Assembly (NCBI GenBank): GCA_024244705.1
Contig: JAAEOK010000050.1
Span: 1 to 64,000 of the forward strand
Direction of reading: 5' to 3'
Source of the DNA: Alphaproteobacteria bacterium
GTDB lineage: Bacteria; Pseudomonadota; Alphaproteobacteria; JAAEOK01
Length of the DNA stretch: 64,000 nt
The notes under the pieces were generated by a model. The model saw nothing but the letters and a program-made list of their open reading frames with translations. It was not told the origin of the DNA and did no database searches. Positions 3,390 through 63,224 of this stretch are shown here, piece by piece (within the stretch, counting starts at the first letter, position 1; every line of letters begins with the position of its first letter). The translations under genes and the position numbers were made by a program.

Positions 3390-4190
3390 ATGGAAGCCAG
3401 GCCTGCAGGACAAGTGACGCACGATGGGGCCGATATCTATCAAGAGTTCTTTGTGCCGGCGCTCTTCTCGGAATGGGCGGGGCCGGTATCCGACGCCGCT
3501 TTTCTTGAACCAAACGACCGCGTCCTCGACATTGCCTGCGGTACGGGCGTGCTCGCGCGCGAAGCCGCCACGCGGGTTGGGCCCGGTGGTACCGTTGTCG
3601 GCTTGGATCGCAACCCGGGCATGCTAACCGTGGCCGCTCGGGTATCGCCGCGGATCGAATGGCGGTTGGGCCGGGCCGAAGAGATGCCGTTCCCTGACTG
3701 TACGTTCGATGCCGTGATCAGCCAGTTCGGTCTCATGTTCTTCGAGGATCGCATTGCCGCGTTACGGGAAATGTGGCGCGTGTCGCGACCCGGAGGCAGG
3801 ATTGCTGTAGCGGTCTGGGATGCACTCGACCGTACCCCGGGTTATGCCGCGATGACGGAGCTGCTCCAGCGGCTGTTTGGCGATTCGATCGCGGATGAGC
3901 TGCGGGCCCCATACCAACTGGGCGACAGCGAATCGTTGCGACGCTTGTTCGCGGACGCCGGGATCACGGGGCCGACCGTCGGCGCCCGCGACGGCCGCGC
4001 AAGGTTCCCGTCGATAGATGCTTGGGTCCATACCGACATCCGAGGTTGGACCCTTGCCAATCTGATCGACGATCGACAGTACGCCGAATTGCTTTGCGCC
4101 GCCCGGCAAGAGCTACAGCCTTTCGTCCTGCCCGACGGCAGGGTGGAATTTGGTCACTCGGCATTGATCGTCGCGGCGACCAAATCATGA
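3390..4190 (+). CDS. Class I SAM-dependent methyltransferase
   Basis: A 266-residue UbiE/Methyltransf_11-type enzyme. Motif I is VLDIACGTGVLA, the acidic loop is VVGLDRNPGML, and the motif EEMPFPDCTFDAVISQFGLMFF followed by EMWRVSRPGGRIAVAVW is typical of the UbiE-like group acting on small molecules. The start at 3390 has GGAGG five bases upstream; in-frame ATGs at 3354 and 3372 lack one. It is divergently paired with the HxlR regulator, which probably controls it. The methyl acceptor is unknown. Confidence 0.85.
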   Translation: MEARPAGQVTHDGADIYQEFFVPALFSEWAGPVSDAAFLEPNDRVLDIACGTGVLAREAATRVGPGGTVVGLDRNPGMLTVAARVSPRIEWRLGRAEEMPFPDCTFDAVISQFGLMFFEDRIAALREMWRVSRPGGRIAVAVWDALDRTPGYAAMTELLQRLFGDSIADELRAPYQLGDSESLRRLFADAGITGPTVGARDGRARFPSIDAWVHTDIRGWTLANLIDDRQYAELLCAARQELQPFVLPDGRVEFGHSALIVAATKS

Positions 4191-4214
4191 CCGCAGGGCG
4201 GCGCTTGCAGCCCT

Positions 4215-7160
4215 CTATCGCGGCCGCGAGCAGAACTGGCGCCACATCGCCGTGTACGCCGCTTCGAGACCGCGGGTGAAACGCGCCGGATCGGATGCCG
4301 GGGCGGCCATGAAATCGCGGCGCAGCGTCTGGCGCCGCTGCGCCAACCGGTCAAGATTGCCGGCCAGCTCGATGGCGCGGGCAACATAATCATTCGTATC
4401 GCTCGCGATGGTGTCGGTGACGCCGCGGCTGGACAGCAAGCTGACGCCGACTCGGCCGACATGGGACCGCCCGGCGAGGGTGATGACCGGGACGCCCATG
4501 ACCAGGGCCTCGCAGGTCGTCGTCGTACCGTTATAGGGAAAGGTATCGAGCGCGATGTCGACCTCGTTGTAGAGGGCGAGATGCTCGAAGATGGTCGCAG
4601 TCGCACCGACCAAGGCGACGCGGTCCAGGCTTATCCCATGACCGGTGAATTGTTCGGAAAAATAGGTACGGATATCCAGGTTTTCGAAGGCGCGCGATTT
4701 GAGCAGCAACCGGCTTTCCGGCACGGCATCGAGAATTCTTGCCCACGCTTCGATGACCAATGGATGGGTCTTGGCGATGTTATTGAACGAGGCGAAGGTG
4801 ACATGGCCGACGGTACGCGCCGGCGGCGGGACCAGGTCGGGCAAATCGGCCGGCGGTTGGTAGCAGAGGAACCCGTCGGGCAGCCGGACCAAGGTCTCGG
4901 TCGCCAAGTCGTCGGCCTCGCCGGGCGGATCGGCCCAGCGGTCGGTCAGGCGGTAATCGACGGCCGGGATCCCGGTGGTATCGGGATAGCCAAGATAGGT
5001 GACCTGGACCGGCGCCGGACGCTGCGCCACCGCCGGCAGGCGATTGTTGGCGGTATGGCCGGACAGCTCGACCAGGATATCGATGCGGTCGCCGCGAATC
5101 AGGTCGACCAATTCGGCGTCGCCGAGCGGGCGAACGTCGCGCCACTCGGCAACCATGTTCTTGAGGCGCGCCGTCGTCTCGTCGGGTGACCCTGAATTGT
5201 GGTAGGCGAACGTCGTCACTCTCTTGGTGTCGTGATGGGCGAGTATCGGCTCGATGAAAAAGCCGACCGGGTGGGTACGGAAATCGGGCGACAGGTAGCC
5301 GACGCGCAACGGGCGGTCGACCGTCCGGTCGCACGCCGGCGCGGCCGGGACCTCGGCCCCGCCGGCGATGATCCGCCCGCGTTGGACATGCTCCTGGTAG
5401 AGGTCCAGCGGCTCGACGGCGGGCACGTAGTGGGAGGCGAAGAGCAGGTTGCTCTGGCCATGGCTAAAGGCCGGATCGATTTCGACCGCCCGCCGGTAGT
5501 GGGCGAGGCTTTCTTCGGCGCGGCCCATGCCCTTGTATATATTGCCGAGATTGCTGTGCACGGCGGCGAGGTCCGGTTTGACCTCGAGGGCGCGCTCGTA
5601 GATCTCGATCGACCGCTGCTGCTGCCCCTCCTGTGCGACCAAGTCGGCGAGATTGATCAGCGCCGGAATGTAGGCGGGCTCGCGCTCGAGGATGCGTTCG
5701 TACTCGGCGATCGAATCGTGCCGCCGCTTCGCCCGGCCGAGGGCGAGGGCGTAAGAAAAGCGAAGCTTGAGGTCATCGGGCCGCCGGTCGACGGCACGCC
5801 GCCACGCCTCGGCCGCATCGTCATGGCAACCCTGGCGGTCGAGGATTCGGGCGCGCTCCTCGTCGGTGGCCGGTTCGCCGTCCGCGCCGCCGACCGCTAT
5901 TGGCGCGCGCTCATTGAGGAATTCGAGCACGTAGCGCCCGCGGTCGCCTTGTCCGTAATTGCGGCTCAATCGGAAGCCCGGGAACAGGGTCTCGAGGAAA
6001 GCCGACATTTCCTCGACCGTACCGAATTGCCATTTCGACGTCGTATGCCATGCGTCGCCAATCGGCTTGGCGCCGGTTTCGACGAGGCGGCATTCGATAA
6101 TGAAACGGCGGCAGGCGGCGGCGAGCTTCTTGGCGTTGCCGGGCGGGTCCTGGGTGTGATGCAGGACCGAGAACAGCATAATGGTATCGAAGCTGCCGGG
6201 GATCGGCGACTTATCGAGATCGAGGGCACGAAATTCGATCGGCTTGTGCGCGATATTGCTGATGATGCGGGCGGCATTTACGGCGTGCGTATCCAATTCG
6301 ATACCGGTGACGCGGCATCCGCGGTCAAAGAGATAGCGCGACAACAGCCCCGTATTGCAGCCGACGTCGAGAACGCGCTCGCCATCACGAAAGGGAATCG
6401 TATCAAGCAGCGGGCGGCGGGCTTCGAGATCGCGTTCGCCGTCGGCGACAACGTCAGTTTCGGCAATGCGGTGATAAACACCGCTCTGCCCGAGAGTCGT
6501 TTGCTGACCTTGCAACAGCGAACTTCCACCGATGTCGAGGGCGCCGTCGCGGAACAAGGCCAGGGCGTGGTGATCAAGATCGATGCCGGGAAAATAATGA
6601 AACATTGAAGCGAGTTCATATTTGCGCCGGGCGTACTCGTTGCACCAGTGGAGGAAATCGAGGTTGTTCAGGGACCGCGTGTCTTCGTCGAGCAACTCGG
6701 CCTGATCGTAGTCTACCAGGTAGAGAATGTCGGTCGCCGGATCGAAGCGGCAATGTTCGGGCTTCGGGTCGCCGTGGTAAACGCCCAGGTTTTTTTGCTC
6801 GATGATCGCGAGCAGTAGGTCGACGAGCCGTACGGCCCGGGCCTCGGGAATGAATTGCAGGATGAGGAACGGGCAGGGGTCATTGATCGGCGTGCCGTCG
6901 GTGGCGCTGATCGATCCACCCATCATCTGGTGAATCTGCGACAATGGCATCGATCCGCGGTGGTGGAGGCGGGGGCAGGTCACCGCCCCAGTCTCGTTAA
7001 GATGCTCGAAGATTTTGGCTTCCTCGGCCATCGAGTTCGACTTGTTGGGATCTTGAAACAGCTGTGCCTTGAGAAAGAACCGTCCCTGCTGGTCCGACGT
7101 CACCAGCGAGCCGTTGTGGATGACGGGCTTTTCGAATCTGATGCTACCGACCTTGTCCAC
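4215..7160 (-). CDS. Kinase-like / methyltransferase / TPR / O-GlcNAc transferase (SPINDLY-type) fusion
   Basis: A 981-residue four-part protein. Residues about 20-200 resemble a small protein- or aminoglycoside-kinase fold, with VYHGDPKPEHC (HGD at 129-131) and YLVDYDQ (DYD at 150-152) where HxD and DFG would fall. Residues about 240-420 are a class I methyltransferase (VLDVGCNTG 263-271, GIELD, MLFSVLHHTQDP). Residues about 434-570 hold TPR repeats. Residues about 617-975 are a GT41 (OGT/SPINDLY) catalytic domain: SPDFRTHPVGFF 624-635, LSGHTANNRL 699-708, YLGYPDTTG 722-730, FASFNNIAKTHP 789-800 with Lys797 at the UDP-binding lysine position, and LDTFPYNGTTTTCEALVMGVPV 871-892. It probably glycosylates cytosolic proteins such as flagellin-like targets, or glycans. 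The divergent neighbour is a GT4 gene. Confidence 0.85.
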   Translation of the reverse strand: MDKVGSIRFEKPVIHNGSLVTSDQQGRFFLKAQLFQDPNKSNSMAEEAKIFEHLNETGAVTCPRLHHRGSMPLSQIHQMMGGSISATDGTPINDPCPFLILQFIPEARAVRLVDLLLAIIEQKNLGVYHGDPKPEHCRFDPATDILYLVDYDQAELLDEDTRSLNNLDFLHWCNEYARRKYELASMFHYFPGIDLDHHALALFRDGALDIGGSSLLQGQQTTLGQSGVYHRIAETDVVADGERDLEARRPLLDTIPFRDGERVLDVGCNTGLLSRYLFDRGCRVTGIELDTHAVNAARIISNIAHKPIEFRALDLDKSPIPGSFDTIMLFSVLHHTQDPPGNAKKLAAACRRFIIECRLVETGAKPIGDAWHTTSKWQFGTVEEMSAFLETLFPGFRLSRNYGQGDRGRYVLEFLNERAPIAVGGADGEPATDEERARILDRQGCHDDAAEAWRRAVDRRPDDLKLRFSYALALGRAKRRHDSIAEYERILEREPAYIPALINLADLVAQEGQQQRSIEIYERALEVKPDLAAVHSNLGNIYKGMGRAEESLAHYRRAVEIDPAFSHGQSNLLFASHYVPAVEPLDLYQEHVQRGRIIAGGAEVPAAPACDRTVDRPLRVGYLSPDFRTHPVGFFIEPILAHHDTKRVTTFAYHNSGSPDETTARLKNMVAEWRDVRPLGDAELVDLIRGDRIDILVELSGHTANNRLPAVAQRPAPVQVTYLGYPDTTGIPAVDYRLTDRWADPPGEADDLATETLVRLPDGFLCYQPPADLPDLVPPPARTVGHVTFASFNNIAKTHPLVIEAWARILDAVPESRLLLKSRAFENLDIRTYFSEQFTGHGISLDRVALVGATATIFEHLALYNEVDIALDTFPYNGTTTTCEALVMGVPVITLAGRSHVGRVGVSLLSSRGVTDTIASDTNDYVARAIELAGNLDRLAQRRQTLRRDFMAAPASDPARFTRGLEAAYTAMWRQFCSRPR

Positions 7161-7554
7161 CGCGTTCTCGTTCCCGATTATCCAATCTCAATGGCCTTGT
7201 GGGCCGTCTCGCCCAAACCGCAACGGAATTGATTCTACATGAACGCATGGCGCTCAAGAGCCCGAAAAAAGCAAGTCGGTGCGCGCTTCCCGACACGCCT
7301 CGACAGTATCGAAGTTGGCCACGCCATTCCGCTGAAAAGTTGACTCGAACTCGCACATTCCTTATCAGCGCTCGACAAGGTTGGATCCTTCACGGAACAT
7401 GAAGCCAAAGGCAGATCAACTGCCGGCCGACTGGGGGTCAGTGTCCATTGGTGTCGCGCACCATCTTTACCGGACTGCGTGCGAGCGTCCATTTCGGGGC
7501 TCGACCGTTGGTGCCCGGACGATGCCGGCGATCCTCCAGCGGAGGTCTTCATCG
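7161..7554. other. Divergent intergenic region between OGT fusion and GT4 gene
   Basis: I find no gene with coding support. It separates two divergent glycosyltransferase genes and should hold both promoters. A sigma-70-like box pair on the plus strand is listed separately. Confidence 0.45.
7340..7368 (+). promoter_or_regulatory. Candidate sigma-70 promoter for the GT4 gene
   Basis: TTGACT at 7340-7345 and TATCAG at 7363-7368 are separated by 17 bases, five and four of six consensus matches. It lies about 190 bases before the proposed GTG start at 7555. This is a consensus match only. Confidence 0.3.
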
Positions 7555-40733: not shown

Positions 40734-41363
40734 CTAGGCGACCACCCCGGGGCGGGCGGCGACGCGGTCGTGCCATTCCTTCAGGTGGCCGGCGTCGGCA
40801 GGAATCCCCTCCTTGATCCAAGCGGCGAATTCGACGGCGACGATCGCGGTGATGTCGGCGATCGTATAACGCGGCCCGGCGACATAGGGGCTGGCGGCGA
40901 GGCGGCGGTCGAGTTCCGCAAGGAAGTGTTTGACCCGCCGCCGTCCCCGTTCGGCGAGCTCGGGGATCTGCGGGTGATTGACGGTCCCGGTCAAGGCGCG
41001 GTCGACGAACCCCTTAGCGCTGTTGCGCAGGACATCCGCCACCGGCCCGAAGCCGTCCCATTCCATTGCCCGGTTCCACGATGCGATCACGCCCTTCTCC
41101 CGCGCGTCCTGCCCCATAAGATTGGGCACCGGAAAGGCGTCCTCGAGATAGACGCAGATCGAATTCGAATCCCACAACGTGGTGCCGTCGTCGAGTTCGA
41201 GCGTCGGGACCGTGCAGTGCGGATTGACGGCGCGGAAGGCGTCGCCGAGATGTTCGCCGGCGCGCAAATCGACCTCGACGGTTTCGATCTCGATGCCCTT
41301 CTCGGCGATGAAGATTCGAACGCGCCGCGGACTCGGCGCGGTACTGCAATCATAGAATTTCAT
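40734..41363 (-). CDS. Glutathione S-transferase family protein
   Basis: A 209-residue cytosolic GST. The thioredoxin-like half holds MKFYDCSTAPSPRRVRIFIAEKGI with a Ser/Cys near the catalytic position, the cis-proline TVPTLELDDGTTLWDSNSIC and the all-helical half begins after YLEDAFP. The C-terminal motif RYTIADITAIVAV is the N-capping box. Substrate unknown. Confidence 0.9.
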   Translation of the reverse strand: MKFYDCSTAPSPRRVRIFIAEKGIEIETVEVDLRAGEHLGDAFRAVNPHCTVPTLELDDGTTLWDSNSICVYLEDAFPVPNLMGQDAREKGVIASWNRAMEWDGFGPVADVLRNSAKGFVDRALTGTVNHPQIPELAERGRRRVKHFLAELDRRLAASPYVAGPRYTIADITAIVAVEFAAWIKEGIPADAGHLKEWHDRVAARPGVVA

Positions 41364-42152: not shown

Positions 42153-42734
42153 ATGACCGCGATTCGGGCCACAACCATCATTTTAGCTGTTGCCGTCGTT
42201 GCGCGTGTCGTGCCGGCGTCGGCGACCGACGATTTCAACGATGTGCCGTTTCTGTTCGCCAAGGTTTCCGATGCTCTCGAGACCGAGCCCACGGGTTCGC
42301 CGATAGCCTGGACCAATCCGGGGACCGGAAATTCGGGAACGATCGTGGTGACGCGGACATTCTTCCTCGGCGACGGGTCGCCGTGCCGCGATTATACGCG
42401 GACGACGGATCGATCGGGCCAGGAGCCATTAAGCGAAACGGGGACCGGCTGCCGAGAGGCGGACGGGCGCTGGATGCTGAAGGAAACGGCACCGCCGAGC
42501 AGCGGTCCGACGCCTCTGGTCGCCACGCCATCCGAGTCCGAGGTGCGGGTGACGCCCCTGCCGTCGCCGCCGCTTACGCCGCCCGCGGAAACGGCGCCCT
42601 CCGTGGTGGCGCGCTCGGAGCCCGCCGCAACGTCACCACCACCCTTGCCAAACCCGGCCAAATCGACGACACAATCGACGGCGAAGAAGATTCCAAAGAT
42701 CTCCTCGACCACGATGCCGAGCAGATCCGATTAG
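42153..42734 (+). CDS. Secreted protein with RT0821/17-kDa surface antigen-like domain and Pro-rich tail
   Basis: A 193-residue exported protein with a signal peptide (cleavage near VPASATDD). Residues about 45-105 match the RT0821/Lpp0805 surface-antigen domain: SPIAWTNPGTGNSGTIVVTRTFFL, CRDYTRT and GCREADGRWML, with the two conserved cysteines. The remaining 85 residues are a flexible Pro/Thr/Ser-rich tail ending in Lys-rich KSTTQSTAKKIPK, possibly wall- or membrane-associated. It lies 19 bases before the pseudokinase gene and looks like the first gene of that operon. Confidence 0.75.
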   Translation: MTAIRATTIILAVAVVARVVPASATDDFNDVPFLFAKVSDALETEPTGSPIAWTNPGTGNSGTIVVTRTFFLGDGSPCRDYTRTTDRSGQEPLSETGTGCREADGRWMLKETAPPSSGPTPLVATPSESEVRVTPLPSPPLTPPAETAPSVVARSEPAATSPPPLPNPAKSTTQSTAKKIPKISSTTMPSRSD

Positions 42735-42753
42735 GCCTGTTTGGATCTGGTAA

Positions 42754-44925
42754 ATGTCGGTGGAAAAATCGATCTCCTCCTCATCCGCCCCGAGCGGCCT
42801 GCCGCCCCGGCACGTCGTATTGTCGCCGGGCCAACAGCTGAACGGCTATCTCGTTCACGCGCAGATCAGCCAGGCACCGCACGCCTTCACCTATTCCGGC
42901 ATCGAGAGCCATAACAATCATCCCGTTGTGATCCGGCTTTCGCGTCCGGATCCGGACAGCCAGGAAGCGGTTCGTCGCGAAGCGCAGACCCTGGGCCGCA
43001 TCCGCCACCCCGGCTTGGTGCGCATGGTGGGGACGTCGACGGTGGCCGGATTGCCTTACATCGTACTCGACCGCGAGGACGGAATTACCCTGGACCGGAT
43101 CATCCCGGTTCTCGGCGGCGCCATCGCGCAAAGCACGGTCCGGGATCTCATGCTGCGCATCCTCGACGCGCTCGAGGTCGTACACGCGGCCGGATTGGTT
43201 CATTGCGATCTGTCGCCGTCGAACGTCCTCGTTCGTCCCGACGGCTCGCCGGTGCTGCTCGACTTCGAAGCGGCCCAGGTGCCGGCGGAAATGGATGTCG
43301 TGCGATCCTTCGTCGATGTCACGCCGGGTTATGCCGCGCCGGAACTGTACTCGCTCGATGCGCAGATTGGTCCGTGGACCGATTTCTACAGCGTTGCCGC
43401 CATTGCCTATAGCCTGCTGACCGGGAAAGCGGCACCCGACGCCACTGAGCGTACCGAATCGAGACTGCTCGAGGGCCTCGACGCCGAGCAATGCTCGCCG
43501 TCTTTCGCCGCCGTGATCGATAGTGCCTTGGCGTTGGCACCGGATAGCCGGCCGGTCGCTGTCAAGGTTTGGCGCGACGCGATTTCGACCGTGGACGCGC
43601 CGTCCGATAACGGTAAGGTGACGACGCTTTCGAACGTCGTGCGCCGGGCGCAGGAGGAGACTGTCGAACTCCCCGCCAGCGACGATTTTCCGTCGACGAT
43701 TCGTGTCGAGATTGCGGACGAGCCCGAGGCCGCCGAGGTCCGCGTCCCCGCGCTCACCGCCACCCCGGGGGACCGGTCGAGCCGTGCACCGCTTCCGGAG
43801 ATCACGCGGCATCATCGGTCCGGCGGCGGCGGTCGCGTTTTTCTCACCTTGGTCGTCGTTGCCGCGATCGCCGCCGGCGGGTGGTTCGGCTGGGAATATT
43901 ACCGCTGGTGGTCGAAGACGGAGTGGACGGTCGATGCGATCGGCAGCGCCGACGCGGCGACCATCGCCGAGGCGATCGAAAATGCCCGGCCCGGATCGGT
44001 TATCCGCGTGCGCTCGGGCATCTACCGCGAAAGCCTGACCATCGACAAGCCGATCAGCCTGATCGGCGAGTCGATAGAAGGCCAGCCGGTCATGATCATT
44101 CCGCCGGCCGGCCGGTGTCTCCTGGTGTCCGCCGGCAGCGGGATCATCGACGGGCTGACTTTCGAAGGCGGTGATGGCACGAGTCCCTGCATCGATCTCG
44201 CCTTCGGCGATGTTGAGGTCGCGAACAATGTGATCGCCAACTGGAAAGGCACCGGCATGCGCCTGCGCGACGGCGGAGCCGCCGCCATACGCGGCAACCA
44301 AATGCGCGACGTCGACGGCGTCGGCATCTTGATCGAGACCGGGTCCGGCGGCGCCATCGAAGGAAACCGTATCGAGCGCAGCGGCAAGGCCGGGATCAAG
44401 GTTCGCGGCGGTTCGGCGCCGACCGTATCGGGAAACCATATCGAGGGCAGCGGACAAGGCGGTTTGGTGATCGAGGGCGGCAGCAGCGGCGGCTATGCCG
44501 ACAACGTGATCGTCGCCGGCAAGGCCTCGGGCATCGAAGTCCGCGGCGGCGCCAACCCGATCGTCGTCGAAAACCGCGTCGGCTCGGCCGGGGAGGCGGG
44601 TATCTTCGTCTACGAAGGCGCTCGCGGCCGGTTCGCCGGGAACCAGATCGTCAGCAGCCGCCTGTCGGGGGTGATTATCGCCACCGGCGCGACGCCGGCC
44701 TTCGAAGGCAACGAGATCCGCGACAACAGGGAGCATGGCATCGCCGTGCTCGGCGGTGCCGGAGGCGAGCTGAGCCAGAACGTCATCAAGCAGAACCGGG
44801 GCCATGGCGTCGCCCTGGGCATCGGCAGCACCGCCACGCTCAAGGACAACGTGATTGAAGGCAACCGCGAGCCGCAGGTTCAAGAGGGCGAAATGGAAAC
44901 CACGGAATCCGACGCGGCACGGTGA
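42754..44925 (+). CDS. Pseudokinase / transmembrane / parallel beta-helix protein
   Basis: A 723-residue protein. Residues about 28-280 are a Ser/Thr-kinase-like domain: HCDLSPSNVL (150-159) has the catalytic Asp and Asn, and PGYAAPELY is the P+1/APE region. Three changes suggest weak or no phosphotransfer: the Gly-rich loop lacks its glycines, Arg61 replaces the ATP lysine (HPVVIRLSR), and DFG is DFE (170-172). Residues 286-355 are a linker, 362-381 a single membrane helix, and 392-705 a right-handed beta-helix with about ten rungs of the GN.I..S...GI.V pattern seen in NosD/pectate-lyase folds. The helix would be extracytoplasmic, perhaps sensing a glycan. It is second in a seven-gene operon with FHA, MotA-like and VWA proteins. 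Confidence 0.85.
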   Translation: MSVEKSISSSSAPSGLPPRHVVLSPGQQLNGYLVHAQISQAPHAFTYSGIESHNNHPVVIRLSRPDPDSQEAVRREAQTLGRIRHPGLVRMVGTSTVAGLPYIVLDREDGITLDRIIPVLGGAIAQSTVRDLMLRILDALEVVHAAGLVHCDLSPSNVLVRPDGSPVLLDFEAAQVPAEMDVVRSFVDVTPGYAAPELYSLDAQIGPWTDFYSVAAIAYSLLTGKAAPDATERTESRLLEGLDAEQCSPSFAAVIDSALALAPDSRPVAVKVWRDAISTVDAPSDNGKVTTLSNVVRRAQEETVELPASDDFPSTIRVEIADEPEAAEVRVPALTATPGDRSSRAPLPEITRHHRSGGGGRVFLTLVVVAAIAAGGWFGWEYYRWWSKTEWTVDAIGSADAATIAEAIENARPGSVIRVRSGIYRESLTIDKPISLIGESIEGQPVMIIPPAGRCLLVSAGSGIIDGLTFEGGDGTSPCIDLAFGDVEVANNVIANWKGTGMRLRDGGAAAIRGNQMRDVDGVGILIETGSGGAIEGNRIERSGKAGIKVRGGSAPTVSGNHIEGSGQGGLVIEGGSSGGYADNVIVAGKASGIEVRGGANPIVVENRVGSAGEAGIFVYEGARGRFAGNQIVSSRLSGVIIATGATPAFEGNEIRDNREHGIAVLGGAGGELSQNVIKQNRGHGVALGIGSTATLKDNVIEGNREPQVQEGEMETTESDAAR

Positions 44926-44957
44926 GATTGCGAAATGACGAACGAAGGATACGCGGA

Positions 44958-45359
44958 TTGAAGACACTGATCGTTGGCCGCAGTTCCCATGCGGATATCG
45001 TCGTCGCCGATGGTTCGGTGGCGCGCCGGCATATGGAGATCGTGGTGACCCGCGACGGACGCTACTACGTCACCGATTGCGGTACCGAAACCGGAACCTG
45101 GCGCGTCGTCGGCATGCAGGACGACAAGGAGGTGTGGGAGGAAACCCGCCAAAGCTTCGTGCATCCCGACCAGCCTTTGCGGCTCGGTTCGTTTCAATGC
45201 ACGCTGAATTCGCTGTTTGCCAAGCTCAGCCCGATCACCGTCGAGGAAGGCGGTGGCAGCGGGGGGTATCGCGACGAGGCCGGGAAGGCGACGCCGCGGC
45301 CCCGCGGCCCGGTCGCGCGCGATCCGCGCACCGGTGAAATCGTGCGCCGGAGGCTCTAG
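44958..45359 (+). CDS. FHA domain protein
   Basis: A 133-residue cytosolic protein. The N-terminal FHA fold shows LIVGRSSHADIVVADGSVARRHMEIVV, keeping the GR and the RRH signature though the usual Ser is Ala (VARRH), then DCGTETGTW. A basic, flexible tail follows (RPRGPVARDPRTGEIVRRRL). TTG at 44958 begins right at the first strand and has GAAGGA upstream; a GTG at 44922 overlapping the previous stop is the alternative. Probably binds a phosphothreonine partner of the operon. Confidence 0.75.
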   Translation: MKTLIVGRSSHADIVVADGSVARRHMEIVVTRDGRYYVTDCGTETGTWRVVGMQDDKEVWEETRQSFVHPDQPLRLGSFQCTLNSLFAKLSPITVEEGGGSGGYRDEAGKATPRPRGPVARDPRTGEIVRRRL

Positions 45360-45361
45360 GC

Positions 45362-46180
45362 TTGGCCGCGGAAAACGGATCGGTTACGGCCACCGCGGCG
45401 CGTGCCCGGCCGCGTGTGCGGCGGGTTTTTTCCTATCCGGTCGTGTTGATATTGTGCGTGCTGCTGGCGGTCGCCGCGATCTGGGGCATGCAGACGGTGC
45501 TGTCGCCGACCTGGGCCGCGATCTTGCTCGACCTCGGTCGCGAAACCTATCCGTTGACGGTTCAAAACATCATGTGGGTGGTGTTCGCGGTCGGCTTCGG
45601 CGAGTTGTTCGTGCGTTGGCGCGAGGCGCGCGACGAGCGTCGCCAACTCGCCGCCGGCTACCTGCCCGAGGACGAAAGCACCGTGTTGCAGGCGCCGGAT
45701 TTGCGCCAGATCTATGCCCGCGCGCGGGCCACGTCGATGTCCGACGGTCCGGCGTCGGGGCGCTTCCTGCCGCGGCTCATCCAACGGGTCGTCTTGCAGT
45801 TCCAGGCCAGCGGCTCGGTCGAGCAATCGAGCACGTTGCTCAACTCCAGCCTCGAACTGTTCCTGCACGAGATCGACCTGCGTTACAGCATGATCCGCTA
45901 TATCGTCTGGGTGATCCCGAGCCTGGGCTTCATCGGCACGGTGATCGGCATTTCGCTGGCCCTCGGTTTCGCCGGCCAGGTCGACCTTCAGGATCCGACC
46001 CTGCTCGCCGAACTGACCAAGCGGCTCGCCGTCGCCTTCAACACGACGCTGTTGGCCCTGGTCATGTCGTCGATAATCGTGCTGGTCCAGCATGTCGTCC
46101 AGGCGCGCGAAGAGGGCGCACTCAACGAGGTCGGTCAATACTGCCTCGATAACCTCATCAACCGGCTCTATTCGGGATAA
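45362..46180 (+). CDS. MotA/TolQ/ExbB-family proton channel-like protein
   Basis: A 272-residue membrane protein with four helices (about 24-44, 68-84, 181-204, 225-246). The last pair carries the family signature: IPSLGFIGTVIGISLALGF and LAVAFNTTLLALVMSSIIVLVQ, matching the GxxGTxxG and T-x-L elements of TolQ/ExbB/MotA. The loop 85-180 would be cytoplasmic. It should form the pentameric ion channel around a TolR/ExbD/MotB-like partner; the VWA proteins encoded next provide candidates. TTG is two bases after the FHA stop, with GGAGG upstream. Confidence 0.82.
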   Translation: MAAENGSVTATAARARPRVRRVFSYPVVLILCVLLAVAAIWGMQTVLSPTWAAILLDLGRETYPLTVQNIMWVVFAVGFGELFVRWREARDERRQLAAGYLPEDESTVLQAPDLRQIYARARATSMSDGPASGRFLPRLIQRVVLQFQASGSVEQSSTLLNSSLELFLHEIDLRYSMIRYIVWVIPSLGFIGTVIGISLALGFAGQVDLQDPTLLAELTKRLAVAFNTTLLALVMSSIIVLVQHVVQAREEGALNEVGQYCLDNLINRLYSG

Positions 46181-46185
46181 CCGTC

Positions 46186-47154
46186 ATGCTGGCGCCGCCG
46201 CGGCGAACCCTCGAAGCATTGAGCATATCCGCGCTCGACCTGTTTGCCTCGGCGCTCGGCGTCTTCATATTGATGGCGATTCTGTTGTTTCCCTACTACC
46301 TCAAGCAGCCGTCCCAGGACATCGAGATGGAGGGCGCGGTCGCCGAGTTGAGCTCGGCCAAGGCAGAAATGGAAGACATGCGGCTGTATTCGGATCAATC
46401 GGCCGACGCCATGGCCGAGGCACGCGCCGCCATGCAGGAGGCGGAACACGCATTGGAATTGGCCCAGTCGGGAATGAGCGCGGCGGCGCAGGCGCGGGAT
46501 ATTGCCCTCGAACGGGCGCGCGCGGAGGCTCAGAAAGTGGCGCCACCGCAGCCGCGACAGGGCAACTTCGTCATTCCCGACCTCGACCTCGTCTTCGTCA
46601 TGGACACCACCGGGAGCATGGGCGAGGAGCTGCGCGACATCCAAGTCAATCTGTTCGGGATCATTCGTGTCCTGCACAAGCTGGCGCCGTCGTTGAACGC
46701 GGGCTTCGTGGCGTTCAAGGATTATGGCGACGAATATTTCACCCAGGCCTTCGCGCTGACGCCGATGAACGGTTCGAACATTCGTGCGATCCAGGGTTTC
46801 GTCGAGAAACTGGGCGCCGGCGGCGGCGGCGACAAACCCGAGCCGGTGACCGCGGCGATGAAGGTCGGCCTCGGCATGAACTGGCGGCCGAAGGCGGAAG
46901 CGCGGCTCATCGTCATCGGCGACGCGCCGAGCCACCGCGTCGATTGGCAGGAGGCCTTCGAGCTGGCCGCCGATTTCAGCGCCCAGCGCAGCGCCGACGG
47001 CAAGTCGCGCAGCATCTCGACGATCTATACGGGCAATCGGAACGCTCCCGGCGCGGCGTTCTTCAAGCGCTTGGCGGAAGCCGGCCGGGGCGACTTCGTG
47101 GTCCACCGCGGCCAGATGATCGAAAGCGTCCTGCTGTCGGTCCTCGAATCGTAG
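46186..47154 (+). CDS. Membrane-anchored VWA-domain protein, MotB/ExbD-like N-terminus (first copy)
   Basis: A 322-residue protein. One N-terminal helix (about 18-38, SALDLFASALGVFILMAILLFPYY) has an Asp18 at its start, resembling the proton-carrying Asp helix of MotB/ExbD/TolR. A coiled-coil stretch spans about 44-117. Residues about 132-320 are a von Willebrand A domain with the metal site DTTGSM (Asp140 to Ser144) and later AFKDYGDE and IVIGDAPSHR. The C-terminus QMIESVLLSVLES is shared with the second copy. The gene follows the channel gene by five bases. Confidence 0.82.
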   Translation: MLAPPRRTLEALSISALDLFASALGVFILMAILLFPYYLKQPSQDIEMEGAVAELSSAKAEMEDMRLYSDQSADAMAEARAAMQEAEHALELAQSGMSAAAQARDIALERARAEAQKVAPPQPRQGNFVIPDLDLVFVMDTTGSMGEELRDIQVNLFGIIRVLHKLAPSLNAGFVAFKDYGDEYFTQAFALTPMNGSNIRAIQGFVEKLGAGGGGDKPEPVTAAMKVGLGMNWRPKAEARLIVIGDAPSHRVDWQEAFELAADFSAQRSADGKSRSISTIYTGNRNAPGAAFFKRLAEAGRGDFVVHRGQMIESVLLSVLES

Positions 47155-47181
47155 CAGGCGCAAGGCGGGAAAGGAGAAGAC

Positions 47182-47556
47182 ATGGTAGCGACGGATTTCG
47201 ATTCCGGTCACGAGCTCGAATGGGGCTGGTGCCTGTCGGGCGAAAGCGCGGATGGGCAAGCAATAGAAATTACCATCGGCGAAACCGAGCTGTCCCGTGC
47301 CGAGGCCGGTGTCGCCATCGGCCGCCATCCAATGTTGTGCGAATACGTCATCGACGATCCCGGCGTGTCGCGCCGCCACTTCCGTCTCAGCCGCAGCGCC
47401 GACGGCCTGCTCGTCGAGGACGTCAATTCGCTGAACGGGACGCGGCTCGACGGCCGCGCGCTGTCGCCGTTCGAGCCGGTCGTCGTCGAGGACGGCCAGC
47501 ATCTGACCGCCGGCCGCGTCCGCCTGGCCGTCAGCCGCTTGGCCGATACGCGGTAG
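47182..47556 (+). CDS. FHA domain protein, canonical phosphothreonine site
   Basis: A 124-residue protein almost filled by one FHA domain. GVAIGRHPMLCEYVIDDPGVSRRHFRLSR gives the conserved Gly-Arg and Ser-x-x-His residues, and VEDVNSLNGTRLDGRAL the conserved Asn-Gly-Thr. It should bind phosphothreonine. It lies between two VWA genes, 27 and 18 bases from its neighbours. Confidence 0.85.
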   Translation: MVATDFDSGHELEWGWCLSGESADGQAIEITIGETELSRAEAGVAIGRHPMLCEYVIDDPGVSRRHFRLSRSADGLLVEDVNSLNGTRLDGRALSPFEPVVVEDGQHLTAGRVRLAVSRLADTR

Positions 47557-47574
47557 GCGGCGGCCGAGGGCCTT

Positions 47575-48552
47575 ATGAGACGGCGCAATCGAAGCTTGGT
47601 CGTATTCAACCTGTCGGCGATGGACCTGCTGGCCATGGCGACCGGGGTGTTCGTCCTGCTGGTCGTCATGCTGATGCCCTATTACCAACGCAGCTTCGAC
47701 GCCAACGCGGATATCGCCGACGTTCGCGCCGACATCGAGCGCGCCGAATCGGAAACCGAAGCGCTGCGCAAGGGCGCCGCGGCCGACGGCCGCTCGGCCG
47801 ATCAGTTGCTGGCCGCCGCCGCTGCGCTCCGCGCCCAGGCCGCCAGCCAGCAGGATGCGGTCGCCGCGCTCCGCGCCCAGGCCAAGGCGGCCGAGGCACG
47901 GGCGGCGCGCGCAACTAAACGCGCCGACGACCAGGAGGTAACCTCCAACCGCAAGATCGTCGGCCAGTTCGACCTTGTCTTCGTCGTCGATACCACGGCG
48001 AGCATGAAGCCGGTGCTCCGGGATCTCAGCCTATCGATCGGCGGGATCGTCCGAATCCTCGAGCGGCTGGTCGATTCGCTGCGGGTCGGTGTGGTGGCGT
48101 ACCGCGATTACGATTTCAGGCCGGGATGGGTGGTCCGCGACCTGTCGCCGACGCCGACGGCGACCCGGGCCGGGGTGATCTACGATTTCATTTCGGGCCT
48201 GAAACCGCCCATCCGGGGCGGCTACACGCCGCGCGAGGCGGTCTATTCCGGGCTCCAGCAGGCGCTGTCGATGGCGCTCCGCTCCGGCGCCAAGCAGGCC
48301 ATCATCGTCATCGGCGACGCCGCGCCCCATCGCGAAGAGGAGGCGGCGACGCTCAATCTGGCGCGCAATTTCGCGCGCAGCGGGCCGCGGCGGACGCTGT
48401 CGGTGCTATTCGTGTCGACCCCGTCCTACCGTCATTTCGGCGACGGCGACGACCGCTTCTTCGCCGAATTGGCGCGTGCCGGCGGCGGCAAGTTCAGCAC
48501 CCATGGCGGGCAGATGATCGAGAGCGTCCTGCTGTCGGTGCTCGAAGGCTAA
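47575..48552 (+). CDS. Membrane-anchored VWA-domain protein, MotB/ExbD-like N-terminus (second copy)
   Basis: A 325-residue paralogue of the 46186-47154 product. The N-terminal helix (about 16-37, SAMDLLAMATGVFVLLVVMLMPYY) again has Asp17 at the entry. A long Ala-rich coiled coil follows (43-120). The VWA metal site is DTTASM (Asp139 to Ser143), followed by AYRDYDF and IVIGDAAPHREEE. The final QMIESVLLSVLEG matches the first copy. It ends the operon; the next gene is convergent. Confidence 0.82.
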   Translation: MRRRNRSLVVFNLSAMDLLAMATGVFVLLVVMLMPYYQRSFDANADIADVRADIERAESETEALRKGAAADGRSADQLLAAAAALRAQAASQQDAVAALRAQAKAAEARAARATKRADDQEVTSNRKIVGQFDLVFVVDTTASMKPVLRDLSLSIGGIVRILERLVDSLRVGVVAYRDYDFRPGWVVRDLSPTPTATRAGVIYDFISGLKPPIRGGYTPREAVYSGLQQALSMALRSGAKQAIIVIGDAAPHREEEAATLNLARNFARSGPRRTLSVLFVSTPSYRHFGDGDDRFFAELARAGGGKFSTHGGQMIESVLLSVLEG

Positions 48553-48596
48553 AGGGCGCCGGGCGCCGACAACGCGGCGCGGTGGAGATGCCGAAG

Positions 48597-48986
48597 TCAC
48601 GGCTTCGCGGCCCAGGCCTCGATTTCGACCAGATAGTCCGGCGCCGCCAGGCCGTCGACGATGGCCAAGGTCGAGGCCGGTAGCGCGCCGTCGCCCAGCA
48701 CTTTTTGACGCGCCGCGCGATAATCCGCGATAAAGCGCGAATCGGTGAGATAGACGTTGAGCTTGACCAGGTGCGCCTTGGCCATCTTGTTGGCCTTGAG
48801 GCAGGCCAAGATGTTGCGAAACGCCTGCTCGGCCTGCCGCTTGGCGCCGCCGGCGAGCCGGCCCTTCGCGTCCACGCCGAGTTGTCCGGAAATCGCCAGC
48901 CACTCGGCATTGGGCGGCACCCTTACGGTGTGGGTGTAGGGGGCCAAAGGCGGGTGGATCGTTTTCGGGTTCATCGCTTCGTTCAT
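48597..48986 (-). CDS. RidA family protein
   Basis: A 129-residue YjgF/YER057c/UK114-type protein. ISGQLGVDAKGRLAGGAKRQAEQAFRNILACLKANKM and VKLNVYLTDSRFIADYRAARQKVL are typical, and LVEIEAWAAKP closes the domain. The arginine needed for imine deaminase activity in the RidA subgroup is not obvious at its usual place, so it may be another Rid subfamily. Unlike the gene at 32575 it ends normally. Confidence 0.88.
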   Translation of the reverse strand: MNEAMNPKTIHPPLAPYTHTVRVPPNAEWLAISGQLGVDAKGRLAGGAKRQAEQAFRNILACLKANKMAKAHLVKLNVYLTDSRFIADYRAARQKVLGDGALPASTLAIVDGLAAPDYLVEIEAWAAKP

Positions 48987-62441: not shown

Positions 62442-63224
62442 TCAGTTCGTGATCGTGGCGGTGAAGTGATAGGGCGAACTCTCGCCGCCGGCGACGATTT
62501 CGTTGTCGCCGGGATTGAGGGCGAGGCTTTCGACCGGGAAGTCCCGGCCCAGACTGCGGCCGTTGACGATCGTACCGAGCTCGGTGTTGCAGTCCCTGAC
62601 CATCACATTGCCGTGCTCGCGCTCGATGACGAAGTGAATCGGCGACAGCCGGTAGGGCTGGGGGTCGTCGATCAGCAGATCGGGCTCGGGATGGGCGAGC
62701 CCTTCGTTCAGGTCGCGAAACCGGCCCACCGAATAAGGAAATCGCGATATGACGATCGGCTCGGCGCCGATATAGAATTGCAGCGCGTAGGTCGCGCCGC
62801 GCAGGGTGATCTCGAGCTCGGCGTCGTCCGCGACGGTGGCGGGCTGTACCGTTCCCGCCGCCGCCGAATGACCACTCGCCGATGCCAGCAGGTTGTTCAT
62901 GTCGCGCAGCCGCGCGCTCAAGCGGCGCAGCAGGTTCAGCGCCAGCGCGCTGTCGCCGGCGACGAGCTCGAGAAACTCGTTCTTTTCGTAAATCTCCGCA
63001 TCGACCGCGAGGACCGCGATGGCGGTCGCGCTGCGATCGAGGTCTTCCAGGACGCCCATTTCGCCGAGGAACTCGCCGGCCTCGAGGCGGCCAAGAACGA
63101 TCTGCTCGCCATTCAGCTCCTTGATGACCGAAACCGCGCCCGACTTGATTTGGAACACGCAGTCGCTGGCATCGCCCTGATGGAACAGGACCGATCCCTC
63201 TTCAAAGCGCTGCTGCTTGGCCAT
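62442..63224 (-). CDS. cNMP-binding domain plus FHA domain protein
   Basis: A 260-residue cytosolic protein. Residues about 5-115 are a cyclic-nucleotide-binding domain with the phosphate-binding cassette FLGEMGVLEDLDRSATA (Glu and Arg positions kept). Residues about 160-255 are an FHA domain (PYSVGRFRDLN, YRLSPIHFVIERE, VRDCNTELGTIVNGRSL). No DNA-binding helix-turn-helix is present, so it is not a CRP-type regulator. The fusion would join cyclic-nucleotide sensing to phosphothreonine recognition, and the cyclase-like protein at 12714 is a possible source of ligand. Confidence 0.85.
   Translation of the reverse strand: MAKQQRFEEGSVLFHQGDASDCVFQIKSGAVSVIKELNGEQIVLGRLEAGEFLGEMGVLEDLDRSATAIAVLAVDAEIYEKNEFLELVAGDSALALNLLRRLSARLRDMNNLLASASGHSAAAGTVQPATVADDAELEITLRGATYALQFYIGAEPIVISRFPYSVGRFRDLNEGLAHPEPDLLIDDPQPYRLSPIHFVIEREHGNVMVRDCNTELGTIVNGRSLGRDFPVESLALNPGDNEIVAGGESSPYHFTATITN

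Follow-up and report, generated by a model that had tools for sequence, protein, structure and literature searches.

The window analysed here (64,000 nucleotides, positions 1 to 64,000 of contig JAAEOK010000050.1 of an Alphaproteobacteria bacterium) encodes a seven-gene operon at 42153–48552. The operon combines a channel subunit of the TolQ/ExbB/MotA class with two transmembrane (TM) VWA proteins, two FHA proteins, and a Ser/Thr-kinase protein that carries a beta-helix. It is real and conserved. Residues and gene linkage point to a probable mechanism: an inner-membrane motor of this class, driven by protons (or sodium ions) and under dedicated Ser/Thr-kinase and FHA control. Since an Asp is found in 134 of 134 VWA N-termini and a Thr pair in 101 of 101 related channels, a 5:2 motor driven by protons, with VWA proteins as its axle, is likely.

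The seven open reading frames are co-directional on the plus strand, all at or near the positions originally predicted, in the order 17-kDa-antigen-like secreted protein, kinase–TM–beta-helix protein, FHA1, TolQ/MotA-type channel, VWA1, FHA2, and VWA2. FHA1 probably starts at the TTG at 44958, because its relatives begin MKAFRIGRS or MKAWTIGRN; given this start, the intergenic gaps are 19, 32, 2, 5, 27, and 18 bases. The Pfam domains, the gene order, and gaps of 2–32 bases all agree with the seven-gene array of the original prediction. None of the seven genes matched a TolR/ExbD or OmpA domain in a Pfam scan. The features are:

42153..42734, plus strand: secreted protein of 193 amino acids (aa) with a signal peptide, a 17kDa_Anti_2 domain (Pfam PF16998, 4.6e-9), and a Pro-rich tail
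42754..44925, plus strand: kinase–TM–beta-helix protein, 723 aa (Pfam Pkinase 4.8e-25, Beta_helix 6.6e-33)
42892–43569, ~43838–43905, and ~43927–44870, plus strand: kinase domain, TM segment, and beta-helix, respectively, of the same protein
44958..45359, plus strand: FHA1, small cytoplasmic FHA protein, likely TTG start in a frame open from 44922 (Pfam FHA 2.2e-10)
45318..45341, plus strand: C-terminal tail motif of FHA1, RDPRTGEI, matching a conserved tail pattern
45362..46180, plus strand: TolQ/MotA/ExbB-type channel subunit, 272 aa, TTG start (Pfam MotA_ExbB 7.1e-11)
45938..45940, plus strand: channel Thr193, pore threonine (Thr in 101/101 related channels)
46046..46048, plus strand: channel Thr229, pore threonine (Thr in 101/101 related channels)
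46186..47154, plus strand: VWA1, with an N-terminal trans-pore-type helix, a long helix to residue 115, and a VWA domain at 133–322 (Pfam VWA_4 1.3e-9)
46237..46239, plus strand: VWA1 Asp18, candidate proton-binding residue (Asp in 134/134 VWA N-termini)
47182..47556, plus strand: FHA2, small cytoplasmic FHA protein with canonical GR..SRRH..NGT (Pfam FHA 1.2e-14)
47575..48552, plus strand: VWA2, second TM-VWA protein and paralogue of VWA1 (Pfam VWA 2.6e-5)
47623..47625, plus strand: VWA2 Asp17, candidate proton-binding residue in the same alignment column as VWA1 Asp18

The channel is consistently linked to the same kinds of genes in other genomes. A GTDB genome scan with channel alignment A1 returned 184 stretches bearing relatives, and linkage was counted in the best 80 loci, scoring neighbour genes in all open frames up to 6.5 kb from the channel with profiles from the window and its relatives. 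FHA genes accompany the channel in 79 of these 80 loci and TM-VWA genes in 70, followed by kinase (58), trypsin-FHA (47), and PP2C (36) genes. The original prediction had staked itself on conserved gene order, and this linkage bears it out. The hosts represent at least six phyla and include Alpha- and Gammaproteobacteria, Latescibacterota, Gemmatimonadota, Binatota, Acidobacteriota, Desulfobacterota, and Rhodothermota; most of the relative genomes are metagenome-assembled, and several contigs are short. Across 385 genomes of the alphaproteobacterial class, we found six close channel relatives (46–60% identity) and nine distant ones (∼35%), with none in the window's own family and order outside the window genome itself. 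The channel stands with a beta-helix gene and two VWA genes in eleven loci (ten plus the window), so the gene set is not a chance association. Two truncated contigs keep the channel–VWA–FHA–VWA portion.

There are several operon types among these loci. The window type contains antigen, kinase–beta-helix, FHA, channel, VWA, FHA, and VWA genes, with the antigen family 5′ of the kinase gene. Type II runs VWA, VWA, FHA, channel, trypsin-FHA, kinase, and in one such locus (L081) the kinase ends in a SUMF1-like domain. Type III contains FHA, channel, FHA, PP2C, trypsin-FHA, VWA, and kinase genes in variable order. A plain PEGA type (L040–L048, L160, and L161) consists of PEGA-SUMF1, channel, VWA, and VWA genes without FHA or kinase. 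In a quick tree of the channels, built with Shimodaira–Hasegawa-like approximate likelihood ratio test (SH-aLRT) support only and with distant outgroups left out because their long branches made it unstable, the window type (13 rows, SH-aLRT 99), type II (24 rows, 100), and the PEGA type (14 rows, 100) each form a clade. The window-type clade is alphaproteobacterial (13 loci), and the PEGA-type channels are separate at ∼35% identity. Type III does not form one clade.

The channel subunit itself resembles known motor channels in both structure and key residues. Its AlphaFold2 (AF2) model, like that of VWA1 a single-chain model, has a predicted local distance difference test score (pLDDT) of 90.7 and helices at residues 20–46, 67–97, 153–206, and 213–269. 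The closest structures in a Foldseek search are TolQ and ExbB, and also ZorA (TM-score by target length ≤0.69, E ∼1e-3), while a PDB sequence search gave weak matches for the channel and none for VWA1. Thr193 and Thr229 are invariant in all related channels, PEGA type included. By sequence motif they match the pore threonines of TolQ and ExbB.

The VWA proteins are the candidate axle. Asp18 of VWA1 is invariant in VWA alignment A2, and a residue-neutral pattern places Asp at one fixed position in every readable VWA N-terminus. The surrounding pore-type helix has the consensus FSxSALDLFASAxGAFIL; VWA1 reads LSISALDLFAS and has no SHLS motif. This helix resembles the pore helices of MotB and TolR, and its core, DLFxSxxGxF, that of MotB. 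Positive residues precede the helix and mostly acidic residues follow it, which fits an N-in, C-out orientation. In the AF2 model of VWA1 (pLDDT 88), a single 105-residue helix (residues 11–115) leads into a VWA fold, and its residues 38–115 (∼78 residues, ∼12 nm) would span much of the periplasm. The modelled VWA domain is integrin/ANTXR-like, with an invariant Asp of the metal-ion-dependent adhesion site (MIDAS) type. VWA1 and VWA2 share 32% identity and thus form a heterologous pair. In two loci, L039 (8557–9474) and the Rhizobium locus L171 (9754–10500), the channel partner retains the Asp helix, but the domain behind it is not recognisable as VWA. The helix, not the VWA domain, is therefore the constant partner of the channel, which suggests exchangeable heads on one motor. 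A further locus, L049 (8773–11119), encodes a channel of ∼294 aa (in a 391-aa open frame) followed by two unlike TM proteins with FLDI-type Asp helices and without VWA; a pair of dissimilar axle proteins may be a recurrent feature.

The core of this arrangement is already known. Williams-Jones et al. (2025, Mol Biol Evol msaf138, PMC12204202, Fig. 4c-d) described TPH-vWA/TolQ-like motors in which TM-VWA genes, mostly as heterologous pairs, are tightly linked with tolQ homologues in the absence of tolR/exbD. They placed an Asp in the trans-pore helix, presented AlphaFold 3 (AF3) complex models, reported no function for this second family (TPH-vWA/TolQ), and suggested gliding for a related one. 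The original prediction, which held that the known systems lack a VWA partner for the channel, is thus outdated on this point. Its description of the operon as undescribed holds in part: TolQ–VWA motors without TolR were published in 2025, and we found no description of the kinase-wired version. The window operon shares with the TPH-vWA/TolQ motors the TM-VWA–tolQ linkage (70/80 loci plus the window), the lack of tolR/exbD, the pore-helix Asp, the Thr ring, and the VWA pair; it adds FHA, kinase, and beta-helix genes, and its relatives add PP2C. The text found of PMC12204202 makes no mention of FHA, kinase, or phosphatase genes alongside TolQ–VWA (its sole ‘fha’ match is FhaC), nor does the paper mention beta-helix genes, so this kinase-wired variant appears to be new. 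Our literature search, in which subscription journals were thinly covered, returned no description of a gene set joining FHA and TolQ/ExbB with VWA or PP2C, and found VWA joined with TolQ in the 2025 paper only. Going by its description, the plain PEGA type would be that paper's Idiomarina family.

The operon likewise shares features with better-known motors. TolQR (Tol-Pal) and ExbBD (Ton) have the same channel fold, the pore Thr, and a partner with a pore-helix Asp, whereas in the operon a VWA domain replaces the TolR/ExbD periplasmic domain, the channel has four predicted membrane helices, and FHA and kinase genes are present. Flagellar MotAB resembles the operon in its four helices and in a MotB pore helix like that of the VWA proteins, but the operon lacks the OmpA peptidoglycan domain. 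Zorya ZorAB (8vvn) is among the structural matches and ZorA gives a weak profile match; unlike ZorA, the operon channel has no long cytoplasmic tail, and Pfam and PADLOC searches of the seven genes found neither an OmpA partner nor ZorC/D/E.

Together, these features suggest the following mechanism, in which we infer the 5:2 assembly, the use of protons, the kinase–FHA wiring, and a role in envelope maintenance. The channel protein would form a pentameric ring whose pore would hold two axle helices, the N-terminal helices of VWA1 and VWA2, with Asp18 and Asp17 facing Thr193 and Thr229. Through the long periplasmic helix, each metal-type VWA domain would reach out to the peptidoglycan or the outer membrane, and there it may bind a partner and transmit rotation or a pulling force. 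On the cytoplasmic side, the two FHA proteins would make the ring responsive to phospho-threonine signals sent by the transmembrane kinase; the beta-helix of this kinase, in the periplasm, may sense the envelope. The motor reading is supported by the operon types, which track the channel tree, and by the existence of AF3 complex models for TolQ–VWA pairs of like design (PMC12204202).

The scarcity of signalling domains in the window genome points to a dedicated circuit. The whole 4.5-Mb genome contains three FHA domains, two of them in the operon and one 14 kb away, and two clear kinase domains, one of them in the operon. Because these domains are so few and PP2C_2 gave no match, the FHA genes look dedicated to the operon machine. 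The sole FHA domain outside the operon belongs to a protein that also binds cyclic nucleotide monophosphates (62442–63224, minus strand), which could be part of the same circuit. FHA2 retains the canonical FHA motif. FHA1 proteins end, after a variable linker, in a short motif that reads RDPRTGEI in the window and RNPLTGDI, RNVDTGEI, or RDPGTGEI elsewhere. Of 73 FHA1 tails, 64 match the pattern R[DNKSH]xx[TS]Gx[ILV]; 1000 shuffles gave a mean of 0.1 matches (maximum 2), and there was none among 357 tails from the other proteins of the operons. The fifth residue is Thr in 62 tails and Ser in 2. The pattern was picked after inspecting the tails, so the shuffle figure indicates that the conservation is real and says nothing on its role. 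A similar RGPDGKIIEEKT is found at the start of many type III FHA2 proteins. The FHA1 tail is a candidate phospho-acceptor site or docking peptide.

The original prediction called the kinase a pseudokinase. The window copy has Arg for the beta-3 Lys, HCD for HRD, and DFE for DFG, and retains the catalytic Asp, the Asn, and the DFG Asp. Nine of the ten window-type kinases keep the beta-3 Lys, the window copy being the exception, and all ten keep the other three residues. The family is therefore ordinary, impairment is possible in the window copy only, and the label fits this copy at most. The window kinase may be weak or dead, and FHA1 and FHA2 may therefore be scaffolds or answer another kinase.

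Several observations weigh against a kinase-controlled motor. In addition to the missing Lys of the window kinase, FHA1 lacks the usual phosphate-contacting Ser (window-type VARRH versus VSRxH in most relatives), and no PP2C_2 phosphatase was found in the window genome by a profile search that did not cover SpoIIE-type phosphatases; a working phospho-switch in the window organism is doubtful for these three reasons. The four predicted membrane helices of the channel contrast with three in TolQ, and its Foldseek E-values are no better than about 1e-3. Moreover, the linkage counts are conditional on channel similarity, because the relatives were found through the channel. With these points in mind, we conjecture, tentatively, that Ser/Thr phosphorylation switches motor engagement: the FHA protein with the RDPxTGEI tail would be a ring clutch set by the TM kinase (and by PP2C outside the window clade), in a module found in at least six phyla to which the window-type alphaproteobacteria added the beta-helix sensor.

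Other functions could be proposed for the same genes. In an adhesion or gliding motor, the VWA domains would be adhesion heads moved by the motor, comparable to GldLM or the Myxococcus CglB adhesin. The integrin/ANTXR-like model and the MIDAS-type Asp suit such a role, as does the gliding proposed in PMC12204202 for a related family, but the pore helix seems to anchor both VWAs in the inner membrane and leaves them a helix of only ∼12 nm, and the operon has no recognised genes for gliding or outer-membrane adhesins. We regard this as unlikely. We give the same low weight to a structural or leak channel without a VWA axle, the VWAs forming a separate FHA/kinase adaptor complex akin to a membrane version of the TerY triad. 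A signalling trio of VWA, kinase, and PP2C is already known (TerY-P type; eLife 2020, PMC7159879), likewise encoded by linked genes, and a recognised TM-VWA is missing in 10 of the 80 loci. TerY-P triads have stand-alone VWAs, whereas those of the operon are membrane-anchored and tied to a presumed proton channel. The invariant Asp at the MotB/TolR position and the invariant pore Thr argue for an axle, and L039 and L171 swap the VWA domain yet keep the Asp helix, which implies that the channel needs the helix.

A Zorya-like phage defence, in which attack is sensed at the envelope and relayed to a cytoplasmic response by ions flowing through the channel, is improbable. The weak ZorA profile match (6e-6), a patchy spread (the close group is in 7 of 385 alphaproteobacterial genomes, including the window's), and distant channel relatives in cyanobacterial defence islands speak for it. 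However, the operon has no ZorB-type OmpA partner, ZorC/D/E, nuclease, or helicase, and neither 50,697 phage records nor viral contigs contained a relative. The operon types are phylogenetically coherent. One close plasmid copy, from a conjugative megaplasmid of R. leguminosarum BT01, has PP2C, FHA, channel, TM protein, kinase, and VWA-FHA genes around it. The window flanks are metabolic and transport genes: a glutathione S-transferase-like gene (40734–41363) and a RidA-like gene (48596–48986), both on the opposite strand, and farther out AidB-type acyl-CoA dehydrogenase, sulfotransferase, and major facilitator superfamily and resistance-nodulation-division transporter genes; no mobile or defence genes were seen among the flanking genes examined. 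The cyanobacterial relatives belong to a different gene set without FHA or VWA, and this, with the lack of phage or viral copies, makes the defence reading of the window weak. Of the ion-driven envelope machine with FHA phospho-control originally predicted, the motor with a VWA second subunit and FHA coupling is supported, as the linkage, the Asp, the Thr, and the kinase, phosphatase, and FHA genes of the relatives fit it; the suggested defence role is not, given the absence of effector genes and of phage or viral-contig copies and the housekeeping flanks.

Finally, a flagellar or type III/VI secretion accessory (a stator-like part or a threonine-phosphorylation module of the type VI secretion system, T6SS) is very improbable: flagellar genes (flgB/flgC and fliP/fliO, by reading) do adjoin the operon in alphaproteobacterial loci L035 and L036, and the T6SS, which uses PpkA, PppA, and an FHA protein, likewise places a Ser/Thr kinase, PP2C, and FHA beside an envelope machine, but the window genome (96.7% complete assembly) has no match to FlhA/SctV (controls positive) or to the VipB sheath (E. 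coli control positive), and hence no flagellum, type III secretion system, or T6SS sheath was found; unless the assembly lacks these genes, this refutes the reading for the window genome.

Few jobs are known for proton-driven 5:2 motors, namely flagella, Tol, Ton, gliding, and Zorya. If the motor reading favoured here is correct, a widespread motor wired to kinase, phosphatase, and FHA proteins would directly link Ser/Thr phospho-signalling to mechanical work at the envelope, and the genes found beside it indicate which partners to test. Since some carriers are in culture (Rhizobium leguminosarum BT01, Pseudomonas sp. WN033, and Arenibaculum pallidiluteum), the question can be addressed now.

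Several minor observations accompany this analysis. A promoter/terminator scan found no promoters above chance. A PADLOC match to PD-T4-6 (1.1e-31) was rejected, as it is a kinase-domain match common to many other kinase profiles. Two cyanobacterial plasmid loci, L172 (6650–9229) and L173 (6803–9403), each encode a trio of a ZorA-like channel with a long coiled tail and two different small TM proteins, one with an FLDI-type Asp helix and the other with Ser at that position, without FHA or VWA. The trio adjoins Cmr/viperin or helicase/methylase genes and is possibly an undescribed Zorya-like motor. Beside a type II operon, L090 encodes a large CHAT-TPR protein on the opposite strand (4139–7264, minus strand; 19 type II loci in all). 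The Pseudomonas sp. WN033 operon adjoins a fusion of PP2C, a thermolysin-type protease, and FHA (L110, 6243–9350, minus strand). The window genome also encodes a second motor-like pair (L003), a MotA-like protein with, by reading, an OmpA-type partner.

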